From contig NZ_WMEX01000001.1 in the NCBI RefSeq assembly GCF_009856365.1, positions 310,001-374,000 on the forward strand: a DNA stretch of 64,000 nucleotides, written 5' to 3'. The notes under the pieces were generated by a model. It worked only from the letters and a program-made list of their open reading frames with translations. It did no database searches and was not told the DNA's origin. The translations under genes and the position numbers were made by a program. The DNA is from Vreelandella halophila (GTDB taxonomy: Bacteria; Pseudomonadota; Gammaproteobacteria; Pseudomonadales; Oleiphilaceae). Positions 1,576 through 62,771 of this stretch are shown here, in pieces; the first letter of the stretch is position 1, and every line of letters begins with the position of its first letter.

Positions 1576-3348
1576 TTACAGCGATTGCCAGAGTGAAGCA
1601 AAGTCATCGTCGTCACTGGTGCCGGATCGGTCTTTGCCTGATGGGCCACGGAATCGCAGCTCAAACTGACTGATGCTGCTGGTGGCGGATACACGCCGGC
1701 TGAGCTGGGCTGTTTCCTGCTCGCCGTCACGCAGCAGCGTGATGCGGTGCCCGGTCTGGAAGGGCATGCGTGGCGTCAGCAGGGTTGCCGGCTGGCCGAT
1801 GGCACTCAGTTCCGGCAGCAGCAGTCCCCGCAGGAACTCACTGCCACTGCCGCTCTTGTTGTCGAGGCGCAGCGCGCAGGGCATCGCGCCAGGGCCCAGC
1901 AGTTCAATACCGAGCTGGGCACTGCGCTGACCGCCCTGGCGGATCCACCGGATCAAGGCGACGCTCCAGGGGTGATCGACATTTTCGCGCACGCCCAGGA
2001 TCTCGCCAGTCTGAAGGCTGGACGGCATCTCCGCATCCCAGTTGATGCAGTAGCCGCCAGGGCTGGTGTTCTCCAGGCTGACTTCGTAAAGCGGGTAGGC
2101 ATGCTCGCTGTCACCGGCCATATCGCCGCCCGAGCCCCGGAAATTGATTGGCGCATCCGGAGAGGTCATGGATTCATGGTGTCCGGCGTCGAAGGCGCTG
2201 GCCCAGGGATCATTGCGCCGCTGCGCCGCGCCCAGGAAGACGTTCTGCGACGGCTCTGTGTCCTGGCTGTCCACGAAGCGGTTGAAGGCCACCTGGCCGG
2301 AGGAAAAATAGTGTACGGAGGTCATGCCAACCGCGACCTGCAGGCTGCCGGAGCTCTCGATACGCCTGTAGGAGCGCTGGGTCAGGACCCCCAGAGCCTG
2401 GCCCAGGTGCATGAGCAGTGCATCACTGACCTTCACGGGCAGTTCAGGGGCATCCGCCGGTGGGGCGGCGTTCCGGTTGTTCGCCAGTGCGGCCAGGCCC
2501 TCCGCGAGTTCGGTGCTGTCGAAGCCGATGTGCTGCGTGGTCAGCGGTGTCCGGAGCAGGTTGCGGTAAGTCGGGGGGGCATCCTGGCCGAGATTGATCA
2601 CAAAGAGCGCGTCATTCATGCCGCGCTGGAGGATCCGGGTATGGGCGGTCCAGCACTCGAACAGGCTGTAAACTTCCGCCAGCTCCTTCTGGCGAAGCTG
2701 ATTCGGTCGGCAGCAGCCAAGCAGCAGCAGCCGTTTGTAGGCATCCTCAACAGTACTCCTGCGGTGGTGCTGGTTGACCGGATCCTCGATGGCAATGCCT
2801 GTGATCTGGCGTGCGAGTGCCCAGCTGAAGATCTGGTGGGCTTCGTACCAGGTGCCGCCGGGGCTGGGCGCGTACAGTTGGCTGGCCCGCAGAAGCGTGC
2901 TGCCGAGGCTGGAGATCGCCCGATGGCAGGCCTGGGCATTGGCCATCTTCTGTTTGTCCGGATTGGGCGTATCGGCGAGCTGGCTCACGACGATCTTGTA
3001 GCCCGTGGCCAGGTGGCGCTGCAGGGCCTGAGCAAGGTTGGCGACTTTGCGCTGCTTTTCCGTCAGAGCGATGGATCGCCCCAGAAAATGCTGGGACAGC
3101 TGGTCACAGATGAAGTTCAGCTGCGGACGCAGTTGGCCTAGCAGCTTCATTCTCAGGGCTGGAGTGATATCGAGCTGGTTAAGCTCGATGACGGCATGGT
3201 AAAGCTGGCGTGCGGACTCACCCACATTGGCGATCGGCAGCCCGTCGACCCATTCCCTGAAGGCGCGTGGGGACGCCTCACAGAAGGATAGACTGCTGAG
3301 CTTCTGTTCCGGAAGCGCGAGATCCGGCTTTCCTGCTTTGCCCGCCAT
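1576..3348 (-). CDS. Conserved fimX-neighbour protein with a PilZ-like motif
   Basis: A 590-residue soluble protein with no signal peptide or membrane segment. It occupies the position of P. aeruginosa PA4958, directly upstream of fimX, with about 41 bases between its stop and the fimX start. The N-terminal two thirds are alpha-helical and not recognised. Around residues 425-430 the segment ENTSPGGY matches the second PilZ motif (D/N-x-S-x-x-G), followed by a beta-rich C-terminus typical of a PilZ barrel. I did not find a convincing RxxxR motif ahead of it, so c-di-GMP binding is uncertain. From context it probably acts with FimX in c-di-GMP signalling or pilus control, which is an inference. 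The reading frame is intact and codon use matches its neighbours. Confidence 0.75.
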   Translation of the reverse strand: MAGKAGKPDLALPEQKLSSLSFCEASPRAFREWVDGLPIANVGESARQLYHAVIELNQLDITPALRMKLLGQLRPQLNFICDQLSQHFLGRSIALTEKQRKVANLAQALQRHLATGYKIVVSQLADTPNPDKQKMANAQACHRAISSLGSTLLRASQLYAPSPGGTWYEAHQIFSWALARQITGIAIEDPVNQHHRRSTVEDAYKRLLLLGCCRPNQLRQKELAEVYSLFECWTAHTRILQRGMNDALFVINLGQDAPPTYRNLLRTPLTTQHIGFDSTELAEGLAALANNRNAAPPADAPELPVKVSDALLMHLGQALGVLTQRSYRRIESSGSLQVAVGMTSVHYFSSGQVAFNRFVDSQDTEPSQNVFLGAAQRRNDPWASAFDAGHHESMTSPDAPINFRGSGGDMAGDSEHAYPLYEVSLENTSPGGYCINWDAEMPSSLQTGEILGVRENVDHPWSVALIRWIRQGGQRSAQLGIELLGPGAMPCALRLDNKSGSGSEFLRGLLLPELSAIGQPATLLTPRMPFQTGHRITLLRDGEQETAQLSRRVSATSSISQFELRFRGPSGKDRSGTSDDDDFASLWQSL

Positions 3349-3449
3349 TGATCATTACCGCTGGTTTCTGGGTGTCCGCTTACAATACAAGTCCAGGGTC
3401 GGGAGAATAGCAAGCGCAACAGGCTTTTGCCGTTGATTTCACAACGACT

Positions 3450-4496
3450 TTAAAGATTCAGGGGCTGTTTGGCAGGTTGGCCGGGGACTTCCCGCACCAG
3501 CTTCGGTACCAGAAAGCCGGGGAGCCGTTCCAGCAGGGTCCGGGTCAGTGCCCGGGCCCTTTCATCACCGGGGTCATAGTGTGCGGCGCCCGCGATGGGG
3601 TCAAACGCGTGCAGATAATAGGGGAGAACACCGCACTCGAACAGGCGCTCGCTGAGCTGCTCCAGGGTATCGGCCTCATCGTTGATCCGGCGCAGCAGAA
3701 CCGCCTGGTTCAGTAGCGTGGCCCCGGCGCCGGCCAGTGCCCTCAGCGCAGCATGGACGTCGTCGTCGATTTCCGCCGGGTGGTTGATGTGCACCACGAT
3801 CACCTTCTGCAGTGGTGATCCACCAAGCCAGTCCAGCAGGTCGGTATTCACCCGCTGGGGGATGACCACGGGAAGCCGGGTGTGGATGCGCAGGCGGCGC
3901 ACATGGTCGATACTGGCCACCGCCGCAGCGAGCCGGGCCAGGAGCCGGTCCGGGCTGGCGAGCGGGTCGCCGCCGCTGAAGATCACCTCGTTGATCGCCG
4001 GGTCGGCATCGATCCGGTCCAGGGCAGCCTGCCAGTCGGAGCCGCCCAGCTGGTGTTCCTCATAGGGGAAGTGGCGCCGGAAACAGTAGCGGCAGTTGAT
4101 GGCGCAGGCACCGGTGACCATGAGCAGGGCCCTGGAGGCGTACTTGTGTACAAGCCCTGAGGTGGCGCTGGCACTGTCGCCACTGACTTCCTCCAGTGGG
4201 TCACTCACATAGCCGGGCTGGTCCTCGCCTTCCTCGGGCAGGGGCAGGATCTGGCGCAGCAGCGGGTCGTCCGGATTGCCGGGCTCGATCCGCCGCAGCC
4301 AGGGTTCCGGCGCCCGGACCGGGAACTGGCGGTGACCGGGTGCCATGCCGGCTAGCATGGATTCCGGTAGCGCCAGGCGCTGGCACAGGGCTTCAGGCGT
4401 GGTAACGGCCTGCCCCAGCTCCTTCTGCCACCGGGGGCGGTCGCTGGCGATGGTTGTGGTTTCGACAGGCGCGTGACCGGACTGTATCATTGGCAT
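3450..4496 (-). CDS. epmB: EF-P-specific lysine 2,3-aminomutase EpmB
   Basis: A 348-residue radical-SAM enzyme of the lysine 2,3-aminomutase family. EpmB converts L-alpha-lysine to (R)-beta-lysine, the substrate EpmA attaches to elongation factor P. The iron-sulfur cluster motif CAINCRYC puts the cysteines at 131, 135 and 138, followed by FRRHFPY. The glycine-rich FSGGDP segment of the SAM site follows. I chose the ATG at 4496 because the longer open frame runs back through efp on the other strand; a second ATG lies two codons in. The length is that of EpmB and shorter than catabolic aminomutases. It is divergent from efp with only 33 bases between the two starts, so the efp promoter lies inside the epmB coding sequence. 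Confidence 0.92.
4462..4490 (+). promoter_or_regulatory. Putative sigma-70 promoter of efp-epmA
   Basis: TCGACA at 4462-4467 and TATCAT at 4485-4490 are separated by 17 bases. The pair lies inside the first codons of epmB, 40 bases before the efp start. It fits the need for an efp promoter in a 33-base intergenic gap. This is a sequence match only. Confidence 0.45.
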
Positions 4497-4529
4497 CCCA
4501 AGTTTACTGGCAATTCGAGCGAGGCATCG

Positions 4530-59733: not shown

Positions 59734-61077
59734 TCAGTAGCGGTTGTCGTCAATCATGACGCCGCGCAGTGAATTCGGCAATGCCTCGGTAATCTCGACG
59801 TCCACGAAGGAGCCGACCACGCCGGGCACATCGGTGCGGAAGTTGACGACCCGGTTGTTCTCGGTCCGACCCTGGTATTCACCGGGATCTTTCTTGGACA
59901 CGCCCGTGACAAGGATGCGCTCGGTGTTGCCGACCATCTTACGGCTGATGTCCATGGCCTGCTGGTTGATGCGGTCCTGCAGGATCGCCAGGCGTTCTTT
60001 CTTGACCTCTTCCGGGGTATCGTCCGGCAGGTCCGCCGCCGGGGTGCCGGGGCGGGCGCTGTAGACAAAGCTGAAGGACACATCGAAGCCCACGTCGTTG
60101 ATCAGCTTCATGGTGTCTTCAAAGTCCTTTTCGGTTTCACCGGGGAAACCGATGATGAAATCCGAGGACAGGCTCAGGTTCGGACGGATGCGGCGCAGCT
60201 TGCGGATCTTGGATTTGTACTCCAGGGCCGTGTGGCCACGCTTCATCAGCGCCAGGATCCGGTCCGAGCCCGCCTGTACCGGCAGGTGCAGGTGACTGAC
60301 CAGCTCCGGAACCTGCTCGTAGACGTTGATCAGCGCATCCGAGAACTCCACAGGATGCGACGTGGTGAAGCGGATCCGGTCGATGCCCTCGATGTCCGCC
60401 ACCCAGGTGATCAGCTCGGCCAGGTCCATGGTGTCGCCGTCCAGGGTTTCCCCGTCGTAGGCATTGACGTTCTGGCCGAGAAGATTCACTTCCCGCACGC
60501 CCTGGCTGGCGAGGTCCCGGACCTCTTCAAGGATGTCCTCCACCGGGCGGCTCAGCTCTTCGCCCCGGGTGTAGGGCACCACGCAGAAGGAGCAGTACTT
60601 GCTGCAGCCTTCCATGATGGACACAAAGGCGGAAGGGCCATCCACGCCTGGCCCGGGCAGTTGGTCGAACTTCTCGATTTCGGGGAAGCTGACGTCCACC
60701 ACGCCGACGCCGCCCTCGCTGTCCGCCTTGGTGATCATCTCGGGCAGGCGGTGCAGGGTCTGGGGGCCGAAGACCATGTCCACGTAGGGCGCCCGGTCGA
60801 TGATGGCCTGACCTTCCTGGCTGGCGACGCAGCCGCCGACGCCGATGATGGCGTCCGGGTTGTCTTTCTTCAGTTTTTTCCAGCGGCCGAGCTGGTGGAA
60901 GACCTTTTCCTGGGCCTTTTCACGGATGGAACAGGTGTTGAGCAGCAGAATGTCCGCGTCGTCGGCGGTGTCGGTCAGCTCCACCTCGTGACTCTCGCGC
61001 AGGAGGTCGATCATGCGCGATGAGTCGTATTCGTTCATCTGGCAGCCGTGGGTCTTGATGAAGAGTTTCTTTCCCAT
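59734..61077 (-). CDS. miaB: tRNA-2-methylthio-N6-dimethylallyladenosine synthase MiaB
   Basis: A 447-residue radical-SAM methylthiotransferase that acts after MiaA. The N-terminal domain holds cluster cysteines ([24 protein letters not shown]). The radical-SAM motif is [17 protein letters not shown]-terminal TRAM domain (about 375-440) binds tRNA. It is the first gene of the operon and has a good promoter upstream. Confidence 0.96.
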
Positions 61078-61142: not shown

Positions 61143-61218
61143 AAGCCTGATGGGTGATTGCTCCCCAACTACCTTATCGGAGCGTCGATGTTGTCACCAG
61201 CCTTTGGGGGTGCTGCAA

Positions 61219-61330
61219 GCGTCGGGCCATGGGGGTCTTTTCCGGGACCGCTGTGAACCCATCCCTGGGCGCTGGCGCGATGGCATCCCTGCCATCGAGC
61301 CTCCCGGAAAAGACCCCCATGCCCCAACGC
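61219..61330 (+). repeat. Structured repeat element, copy A
   Basis: Two 29-base arms (61219-61247 and 61302-61330) pair with two mismatches. Between them a 54-base core has three small hairpins: CCCA/TGGG, GCGC/GCGC and GATGGCA/TGCCATC. The core is nearly identical to that of copy B, while the outer arms differ in sequence but stay self-complementary in each copy. No open frame uses it. Confidence 0.9.
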
Positions 61331-61551
61331 TCAGGGACAGTTGCTATTCGCAGGCCTTTTTAGAGCTTCAGTAGAAAGCTGTGCCTCGCAGCGGAAAAAT
61401 TGGCCAGCTAACGCTTACACAGGGGAGCTGCCCGTGCTTGGAAGATTATTTCTGCTCTTGGCGAATAATTGGTGTTTCAGCATTCCTCGGATCTGAAAAG
61501 GCAGAGCATGAGTCTCAGGCGGGAATGGATGCGTTACCGACTCACTCAACA
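61331..61551. other. Non-coding spacer between the two structured repeats
   Basis: These 221 bases are AT-richer than the genes and have no convincing coding frame, ribosome site or terminator. A weak stem (AGCTT/AAGCT near 61365-61380) is the only structure seen. Together with 61078-61218 and 61663-61751 it makes the largest gene-free stretch of the window. Confidence 0.6.
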
Positions 61552-61662
61552 GCATTGCGGTGGGGGAGCCCTTTCAGGGAGGCTCGATGACAGGATGTCA
61601 TCGCGCCAGCGCCCAGGGATGGGTTCACAGCGGTCCCTGAAAGGGCTCCCCCAGCGTAATGC
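61552..61662 (-). repeat. Structured repeat element, copy B (inverted)
   Basis: Two 29-base arms (61552-61580 and 61634-61662) pair with two or so mismatches around a 53-base core that is the reverse complement of the copy A core. The inner hairpin reads GATGACA/TGTCATC where copy A has GATGGCA/TGCCATC, a compensated change. Copies A and B are about 220 bases apart in opposite orientation. Confidence 0.9.
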
Positions 61663-61751: not shown

Positions 61752-62771
61752 TCAGTCAGAGGAATCATCCAGATAGCTCTGGAGCTGTTCTTTAAGACTC
61801 CGGGGGACCTGGGTGATGATCAGGGCATCCCGGTCGCGGTCGTAGTGGACCGCCTGGTTCACCAGGTCGGAGGAGAACGACAGGCTCAGGCCGTTGCCCT
61901 TGCCGGCGATGCGGACCAGTTTGCGGACCTTGCGCCGGTCCGGGTGCAGGACCTGACCCGGCCCCACGGCCTGGGATTCGGCCACATGCTCGGCAAACCG
62001 CTCCGGCTGGCTGTCATCGATGTAGCTGGAAAGGGCCGACAGGGGCACCGGCTCGCCCAGCGCCTCCTGCTCATTGCAGAACTCGAACGCCTTGTGGCGC
62101 ACGCTCTGGGCGTCTTCCGGCTCGGTCTGCTGCTGGGCGAACGACTCCACCGCCTCCAGGAAAGTGCGGGTCTCCGCTTCCACGTCCACTTCCTGCTGGA
62201 AGCCCACCAGGCGCGCGAAGCACTTTCCGATCTCGCCCGTGCCGCGGCCCTGGAGCACCGTCAGGTAGTTCTCTGAGCCGGACTCGCCGCGCCAGTCTTC
62301 CAGTTCAACGCGGGCCGCCAGGTTCAGGCGGGAGCGGCTGATGGTTTCGGTGGGGGTGAGCTCCAGGTTCGGGTCCAGGGTGAAGACCGGGTCCATCTCC
62401 AGGGCGAAGAGGTACAGCACCTCGCCGTCGGCCAGGGACTCGTGGACGATGAGCAGCGGGCGCTCGGGATCGGTGTCCGCGCGGGTGATCTCGTCCTGCC
62501 ACTGGCCCAGAAGCTGGTCCGTGAAGGCCTCAAAGCCCTGCTGGCCGTCCAAATAGTTGCCGAGCCACCCGCGGATGGGGTGGCTGCCAAGGTCGTCCGA
62601 AAAGCGGCCATAGGCCTTGCCGGGGCGGCTGTTGAACAGCTTTTTGAGCTGGCGGTGCAGGGCTTCGTAGTCACCACCCGGCTCGGCCATCGCCTCTCCG
62701 GCGTTGGCCCGGGCCGGCTGCCCGCCGCCGGGCAGTGTGGCTCGCATCAGCCTGAGCTGCTGAATGGCCAT
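61752..62771 (-). CDS. yejK: Nucleoid-associated protein YejK (NdpA)
   Basis: A 339-residue member of the 37-kDa nucleoid-associated protein family (PF04245). It starts MAIQQLRLM, and the conserved segments include HESLADGEVLYLFALEM and GRGTGEIGKCFARL. The family is found on the nucleoid; its role is poorly defined. Length matches the E. coli protein. It lies three bases after the cysN stop in the same direction, so it may be read from the cysN transcript. Confidence 0.9.
   Translation of the reverse strand: MAIQQLRLMRATLPGGGQPARANAGEAMAEPGGDYEALHRQLKKLFNSRPGKAYGRFSDDLGSHPIRGWLGNYLDGQQGFEAFTDQLLGQWQDEITRADTDPERPLLIVHESLADGEVLYLFALEMDPVFTLDPNLELTPTETISRSRLNLAARVELEDWRGESGSENYLTVLQGRGTGEIGKCFARLVGFQQEVDVEAETRTFLEAVESFAQQQTEPEDAQSVRHKAFEFCNEQEALGEPVPLSALSSYIDDSQPERFAEHVAESQAVGPGQVLHPDRRKVRKLVRIAGKGNGLSLSFSSDLVNQAVHYDRDRDALIITQVPRSLKEQLQSYLDDSSD

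Follow-up and report, generated by a model that had tools for sequence, protein, structure and literature searches.

The closest described repeats are the REP, BIME and REPIN elements of the GTAG and CGTC superfamilies which, in the excerpts of Di Nocera et al. 2013 (PMC3733652), are high-copy interspersed palindromes located between genes and near gene 3' ends, with favoured head-to-head dimers and a strand-specific anatomy; a REP is there one hairpin of 20-40 bp. The same excerpts present the TIRtrons and TIRYT-associated TIRs of Stenotrophomonas maltophilia, abundant self-complementary repeats of Stenotrophomonas which are often paired. MITEs and ISAs1-type IS offer a further likeness, as non-coding dispersed repeats. 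In integron attC sites the conserved core sites are located at the foot of the hairpin and the tip is variable, and MITE ends are conserved. A different likeness is found among RNAs with GGA-loop hairpins, the CsrB/RsmZ-type sponges and TwoAYGGAY (RF01731); the latter has two GGA-type hairpins and CsrA binding has been proposed for it, as stated in part of PMC4333381. The high-affinity Csr/Rsm site is an ANGGAX hexaloop on a stem in the excerpt of PMC4005645, and in that of PMC7652899 a CsrA dimer bridges sites 10-63 nt apart, best more than 18 nt, and most CsrA hairpins obtained by SELEX had 4 contiguous pairs or fewer.

The window (the whole stretch of DNA analysed, 64 kb) contains two copies, A and B, of a repeat here called the Y-element (Table 1). 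Both are located in the gap between two minus-strand genes, one miaB-like and the other for a 37-kD nucleoid-associated protein. The element is formed by an arm of about 29 bp, a core and a second arm, about 110 bases in total, which give a three-way junction and a Y-shaped fold. Hairpin 1 of the core has the pattern GCY-GTGAA bulge-YNCA-TCCN-TGNR-NGC and hairpin 2 is a freely varying stem with a loop containing TCC on the forward strand. Copies A and B share a 58-nt inverted repeat, 91% complementary (61231-61288 and 61593-61650), and the arms of each copy are 93% complementary to each other (61218-61247 and 61302-61331, 30 nt, in copy A; 61552-61580 and 61634-61662, 29 nt, in copy B). The first-pass annotation had described an inverted pair with nearly identical cores and differing, self-complementary arms; coordinates and build are as it described them, with cores of 54 and 53 nt, and the innermost hairpin is indeed changed on both sides (GATGGCA/TGCCATC in copy A, GATGACA/TGTCATC in copy B). 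Folding of the two copies gave z values of -8.9 to -11.8 with 0 of 200 shuffles as good, which is far above chance on either strand. Four adjacent genes were scanned, taken to be (the names are partly assumed) the miaB-like gene, the 37-kD nucleoid-associated protein gene, a CysN-like GTPase and PhoH. None of them is a transposase, and it is for these four, which the scan covered, that the earlier remark of no transposase nearby holds.

Table 1. Features of the Y-element pair and of its flanking genes in the window.
Feature	Position	Strand	Remarks
Copy A, Y-element	61219..61330	+	forward = CGCTGTGAACCC on + strand; folding strand appears to be minus
Copy A 5' arm	61219..61247	+	29 bp
Copy A conserved core, two hairpins	61248..61301	+	54 nt; A1/A2 alignments
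Copy A hairpin 1	61250..61272	+	GTGAA bulge; loop ATCCCT (minus: AGGGAT); placed by alignment
Copy A hairpin 2	61274..61301	+	GATGGCA-TCCC-TGCCATC; minus strand = GGA loop
Copy A 3' arm	61302..61330	+	29 bp
Copy B, Y-element, inverted relative to copy A	61552..61662	-	convergent pair; 221 bp between copies
Copy B 5' arm	61634..61662	-	29 bp
Copy B conserved core, two hairpins	61581..61633	-	53 nt
Copy B 3' arm	61552..61580	-	29 bp
miaB-like gene (UPF0004 / radical SAM / TRAM)	59734..61077	-	context
37-kD nucleoid-associated protein gene (NA37)	61752..62771	-	context; copy B after its 3' end

Compared with the single hairpin of a REP the Y-element has about 110 bp, a three-way junction and two hairpins; its arms of about 29 bp are free in sequence, neither the flank profiles nor the listings reveal a GTAG or CGTC tag at its foot, and in the 59 loci tested it is not associated with RAYT genes. 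Unlike MITE ends, the arms vary in sequence from copy to copy, and with respect to attC the anatomy looks opposite, with a conserved tip and a variable foot. TwoAYGGAY and the sponges share the GGA-loop hairpins, whereas the Y-element has no Rfam match, carries the long arms, is dispersed in many copies and shows no significant gene-orientation bias. The repeats adjacent to Y1_Tnp genes include GGGGTCAGATCC-type ones, fitting the GGGGWSAS motif in the excerpts of PMC3733652, and may correspond to the two TIR families of S. maltophilia; GGGGTCAGATCC-type hairpins also lie inside the spacers of several Y pairs and are distinct from the Y-element. No Y-element was found flanking a TIRYT gene in the Y1_Tnp loci. 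With two weak and distant matches in 59 Y1_Tnp loci, it is probably neither a GTAG REP nor a TIRtron. RsmU of Xanthomonas, given in the excerpt of PMC7694677 as conserved in Xanthomonas and in no other bacteria, is probably not a member of the family, being set apart by its description.

Rfam gave 0 matches at the gathering score in the window and in 10 copy-bearing loci. When the threshold was relaxed for 641 bases, the hits were 9 microRNA models and one sRNA, none of which reached that score. No recognisable description of the repeat was found in the literature searched, subscription papers and figures lying outside its coverage. The family is provisionally considered as apparently unnamed, in agreement with the first reading of the locus, which knew of no named family.

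The core is not confined to the window. In the own genome six close copies were identified on one contig, with variant cores on the same contig and on three others, and a DNA search gave matches in 9 of 38 genomes, own included. The covariance model R2, built from 48 copies (alignment A2), has exactly two matches in the window, copies A and B (E 1e-15 and 2.5e-13). With this model 29, 42, 4, 38 and 106 copies were identified in the five genomes of the window's genus (G000, the own genome, to G004), and matches were present in 8 of 12 genomes, own included, the four without copies being G007, G008, G025 and G026. Another 24 genomes, all chosen because they hold a copy (they were reached via loci with the core pattern), contain from 17 to at least 150 copies each, three of them reaching 150, the number of candidates scored per genome. 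Many further copies thus exist and keep their arms complementary, and the structured family and the REP-like dispersal proposed in the first-pass annotation were both borne out, with a few to at least 150 scattered copies per genome. The core pattern matched at least 119 stretches of named genomes; among the 80 matches listed nearly all are presumably Gammaproteobacteria, and the copy-bearing genera include Stenotrophomonas, Xanthomonas, Halomonas, Microbulbifer, Marinobacter and Methylomicrobium, with others. In G057 three matches (C1:2107479, 4025659 and 4695633) span 118 bases, against the usual 72 or so, which suggests an insertion in the core. Searches of the E. coli and phage collections and of plasmids with a hand-made consensus gave no match, nor did a search of a viral-contig collection with the exact core pattern. 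A natural copy retrieved 16 plasmid records at E up to 10. Three are plausible, two of these on near-identical plasmids, and such a yield, with none on viral contigs, is unusual for a mobile element.

For alignment A2 a copy had to have a 52-nt core and to pair 9 or more of its 10 inner arm bases; 50 copies qualified and, without L030 and L080, 48 were used. In A2 94.6% of 1343 cells are paired, compared with 66.9% in shuffled data, the pairing of the arms being partly due to selection since inclusion itself required paired inner arm bases; no pairing was required of hairpins 1 and 2. Two-sided changes are present in 22 of 28 pairs (371 double-change cells) and are located in the arms, in hairpin 2 and in two pairs of the upper stem of hairpin 1, with one change in its lower stem. 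The covariation value is 0.731 against 0.209 when shuffled, and pairing falls to 35-45% when the partners are slid. The covariation of the family, read at first from copies A and B, is strong. Pairing ends sharply between arm positions 29 and 30 in the genus, from 0.88 to 0.08 in the 26 copies of type I and from 0.81 to 0.33 in the 52 copies of other types, and declines gradually in 115 copies of named genomes, from 0.63 to 0.45. Since sequence information is low at many arm positions, the arm length of about 29 bp looks constrained and the arm sequence nearly free as long as it is complementary. As exceptions, longer arms (36-48) and shorter ones also occur.

The mismatches remaining in the arms were counted in 290 copies and 7540 cells (311 unique of 312 copies, 21 of which were dropped for having more than 5 mismatches in 26 arm positions). 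On the forward strand (CGCCGTGAACCC) there are 206 A·C or C·A mismatches against 35 G·T or T·G, and 184 pyrimidine-pyrimidine against 21 purine-purine. The direction is the same in all six groups, with p about 1e-30, a value that overstates independence because the copies are related and those in one genome are not independent samples. Counted per copy, A·C prevails in 129 and G·T in 18, with equal numbers in 143. If a G-C pair decayed neutrally, A·C and G·T would arise equally often; the excess of A·C thus implies that the reverse strand tolerates G·U (and G·A, G·G), and folding appears to matter on one strand, the reverse one, which carries the GGA loops. The A·C:G·T counts were 60:10 in tandem forward, 66:9 in tandem reverse, 43:14 in convergent and 18:1 in divergent gene contexts; being equal in tandem contexts of either direction, the bias is not caused by read-through transcription of the neighbours. 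The one-strand bias also argues against a symmetric cruciform and against symmetric hairpin copying as sole cause. The earlier statement that the folded shape is under selection or is copied as a hairpin named no strand. The candidate description of the arms as Watson-Crick only, and hence DNA-level and strand-symmetric, was rejected because G·U was found on the reverse strand. Wobble pairs account for 2.7% of arm cells, less than is expected for an RNA helix. For RNA and for single-stranded DNA alike, thermodynamics would favour the same order of forward-strand mismatches, A·C over G·T, and this order is therefore compatible with either kind of folded molecule.

The placement relative to genes was determined for 275 copies with the gene calls made in this analysis (37 copies in short pair windows were excluded). 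Of these, 73 are in tandem contexts read forward and 95 in tandem contexts read in the opposite direction (p = 0.10), 50 are between convergent and 33 between divergent genes, 6 are inside called genes and 18 at edges; these counts supersede those from cruder gene calls (tandem 51 versus 53, convergent 39, divergent 33). The 697 gaps lacking a copy are 68 convergent, 183 divergent and 446 tandem, so that copies are enriched in convergent gaps (50 of 251) and depleted in divergent ones (33 of 251; p = 4e-7). Most copies are intergenic and, judged by medians, often no more than tens of bases away from the 3' end of a gene. The first-pass annotation had also offered an RNA end-protector of the flanking genes and a recombination target; the former, as an orientation-dependent function, is not supported by the nearly balanced tandem orientations, and no direct evidence was found for the latter.

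Neighbouring copies are mostly convergent, as is common for REP dimers: 27 of 36 pairs closer than 600 bp in mixed loci, and all 41 pairs below 450 bp in G038, a chromosome of S. maltophilia in which such pairs account for 82 of 132 copies. In G057 (112 of 143 matches typed, the weakest 31 being dropped) only one close pair in four is convergent, that is 1 of 4. Among 25 resolved convergent pairs outside short windows, 19 are in tandem, 4 in convergent and 2 in divergent gene contexts, and the arrangement is thus not a by-product of convergent genes. In several loci the paired copies share hairpin 2 and not the arms. A different organization was identified in a Saccharophagus MAG (L068, 3105-3755), where four Y copies with similar arms follow each other in the same orientation about 180 bp apart. 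In S. maltophilia SJTL3 (L364-L383) the spacers of the pairs often hold other palindromes, GGGGTCAGATCC...GGATCTGACCCC and GTGTCGACC...GGTCGACAC, and the convergent Y pairs of this organism look like nested repeat composites.

Orthologous sites differ in the presence of the element, being occupied in some congeners and empty in others. The site before the start of a gatB-like gene holds a copy in G001, G003 and G004 and none in G000; in the latter genome only a few bases separate this start from what looks like the stop of the preceding gene. The copy at C11:283762 of G000 is common to G004 and absent in G001 and G003. At one Stenotrophomonas locus a copy was detected in 11 of 30 loci, one further locus ends inside the expected arm, and in the 12 loci inspected among the 18 others no copy is visible within 330 bases. 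Empty and occupied sites differ by more than the element, which does not support precise insertion or excision, and none of the sites compared showed a transposition with clean ends or a duplicated target. At the Stenotrophomonas locus the orthologous arms can be grouped into types; several bases differ between types, yet the arms are still mostly paired, and this could be due to co-evolution, gene conversion or replacement.

Genes for Y1 transposases (Pfam PF01797) were identified in 20 of 27 copy-bearing genomes, the other 7 having no Y1_Tnp match. In 59 loci around Y1_Tnp genes, some of which overlap (e.g. L052 and L318) and 12 of which come from a separate search, several of these lying in genomes with no or untested copies, R2 matched twice and weakly, at about 1.5 and 1.9 kb from the gene, one match being cut off by the end of the stretch. 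The inverted repeats beside these genes include GTAG-type REPs and GGGGTCAGA-type repeats, in agreement with the excerpts of Di Nocera et al. 2013 (PMC3733652). G000 itself has Y1_Tnp matches at C11:137147 and 162613 (L318 and L319), with none in the four congeners searched; these two are matches to the RAYT-like gene that the first-pass annotation wished to see sought elsewhere, and the loci L052, L318 and L319 hold no copy at threshold. The match at C11:137147 is flanked by a REP-type repeat, CTGTAGGAGCGAGC, a relative of which is also found beside the Y copy at C11:283762.

Other candidate drivers found no support. On plasmid pDCA (NZ_KU922118.1, L352) an ISAs1-family IS at 2936-4509, beside a haloalkane dehalogenase gene, carries a convergent Y pair between its 17-bp terminal repeats and the transposase gene, which hinted at ISAs1 as a general driver. 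Four related ISAs1 elements examined had no Y copies, and of 32 genomes searched 28 gave no match to the ISAs1 transposase at E <= 1e-10. Among the gene families beside copies in 119 loci, no transposase or other family stood out, the largest cluster comprising 7 of the 119 loci.

On the folding (reverse) strand the loop of hairpin 2, which was not fixed by the search pattern as that of hairpin 1 was, contains GGA in 243 of the 249 copies in which it was resolved (of 311), and in 220 of the 249 it reads A(N)GGA followed by U or C; the chance expectation for TCC at a given site is about 2.4%. The starts of the two GGA motifs are separated by 23-24 nt. Each loop agrees with the CsrA/RsmA consensus, a resemblance by sequence that makes the core a candidate binding module with two sites at a suitable distance.

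The reading preferred here, with a probability slightly better than even, is that copies A and B are a convergent pair of non-autonomous REP/BIME-like mobile palindromes of a new architecture, propagated through one folded strand. Copies would spread via a folded single strand, of ssDNA or less likely of RNA, which a protein would recognise by the two GGA-loop hairpins and the stem of fixed length. New copies would derive solely from those that can fold on the GGA strand, a filter that would preserve arm pairing during sequence drift; the gene of the mobilising enzyme need not lie beside the repeats. Several results speak against a mobile family: the sites compared gave no clean insertion, the searches around the copies and the transposase genes gave no mobilising gene, the close pairs of G057 are mostly not convergent, and the replication-strand bias that transposition of lagging-strand ssDNA would predict is weak in G038 (all copies p = 0.17, singles p = 0.03). 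A narrower version, in which a REP-associated tyrosine transposase (RAYT/TIRYT) mobilises the repeats as a REP or TIR family, draws on the convergent pairs and the 3' location, which resemble the REP dimers in the excerpts of PMC3733652, but it is highly improbable given that the Y1_Tnp loci carry other repeats and that their two weak matches lie at least 1.5 kb from the gene, besides the copy-bearing genomes devoid of such genes. In another reading template switching or hairpin repair (quasi-palindrome correction) would keep the arms complementary in a fold without function, as the frequent two-sided and few one-sided changes and the differing but paired orthologous arms might indicate. This is very unlikely, and disfavoured as sole cause, because correction equal on both strands predicts A·C equal to G·T, contrary to the mismatch counts, and because the 29-bp limit and the GGA loops are left unexplained.

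Host-selected structures at 3' ends (bidirectional terminators, Rho or RNase barriers, or insulators after genes) would account for the short distance to gene 3' ends, the bias towards convergent and away from divergent gaps, and the ISAs1-type IS with a copy on each side of its transposase gene. The loss of insertions in promoters would produce the same gap bias, no conserved T-run follows the arms, and the strand-specific mismatches are independent of gene direction, which makes such structures quite unlikely. The main rival is an RNA element that would bind CsrA/RsmA through its A(N)GGAU-type loops, about 23 nt apart so that one dimer could bridge them, the stem protecting or presenting the module; it would act in 3' regions or as processed RNAs. 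The GGA of hairpin 2, the hexaloop of PMC4005645 and the spacing range of PMC7652899 (both as excerpted), the mismatch bias that selects the same strand, the presence of CsrA in 29 of 29 genomes checked and the TwoAYGGAY precedent in the excerpt of PMC4333381 all point in this direction. Yet CsrA is also present in the four copy-free genomes and is thus non-discriminating, the GGA strand is co-transcribed with genes without significant preference (95 versus 73), the mismatch bias is equal when tandem genes read the other strand, no conserved promoter-like block was found in the arm flanks across families, and a 29-bp stem is unneeded for hairpins which in the SELEX of PMC7652899 mostly had 4 pairs or fewer. 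As a whole explanation a CsrA/RsmA-binding RNA is therefore rather unlikely, and it could be combined with the mobile palindromes preferred here. In that combination, which is unlikely in its own right, a selfish family would carry two CsrA/RsmA-type hairpins in its propagating strand and would spread via folded RNA or ssDNA that captures the host regulator.

Although repeats of this kind are found between genes in many genera, neither a name nor an Rfam entry nor an enzyme came up for them in the searches. Reading from the mismatches which strand tolerates G·U offers a simple way to tell a strand-specific fold from a symmetric palindrome, and opens two questions to direct testing: what moves the elements, and whether they bind CsrA/RsmA. 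If the combined reading is true, selfish copies would seed genomes with tens to more than 100 potential CsrA-binding modules.
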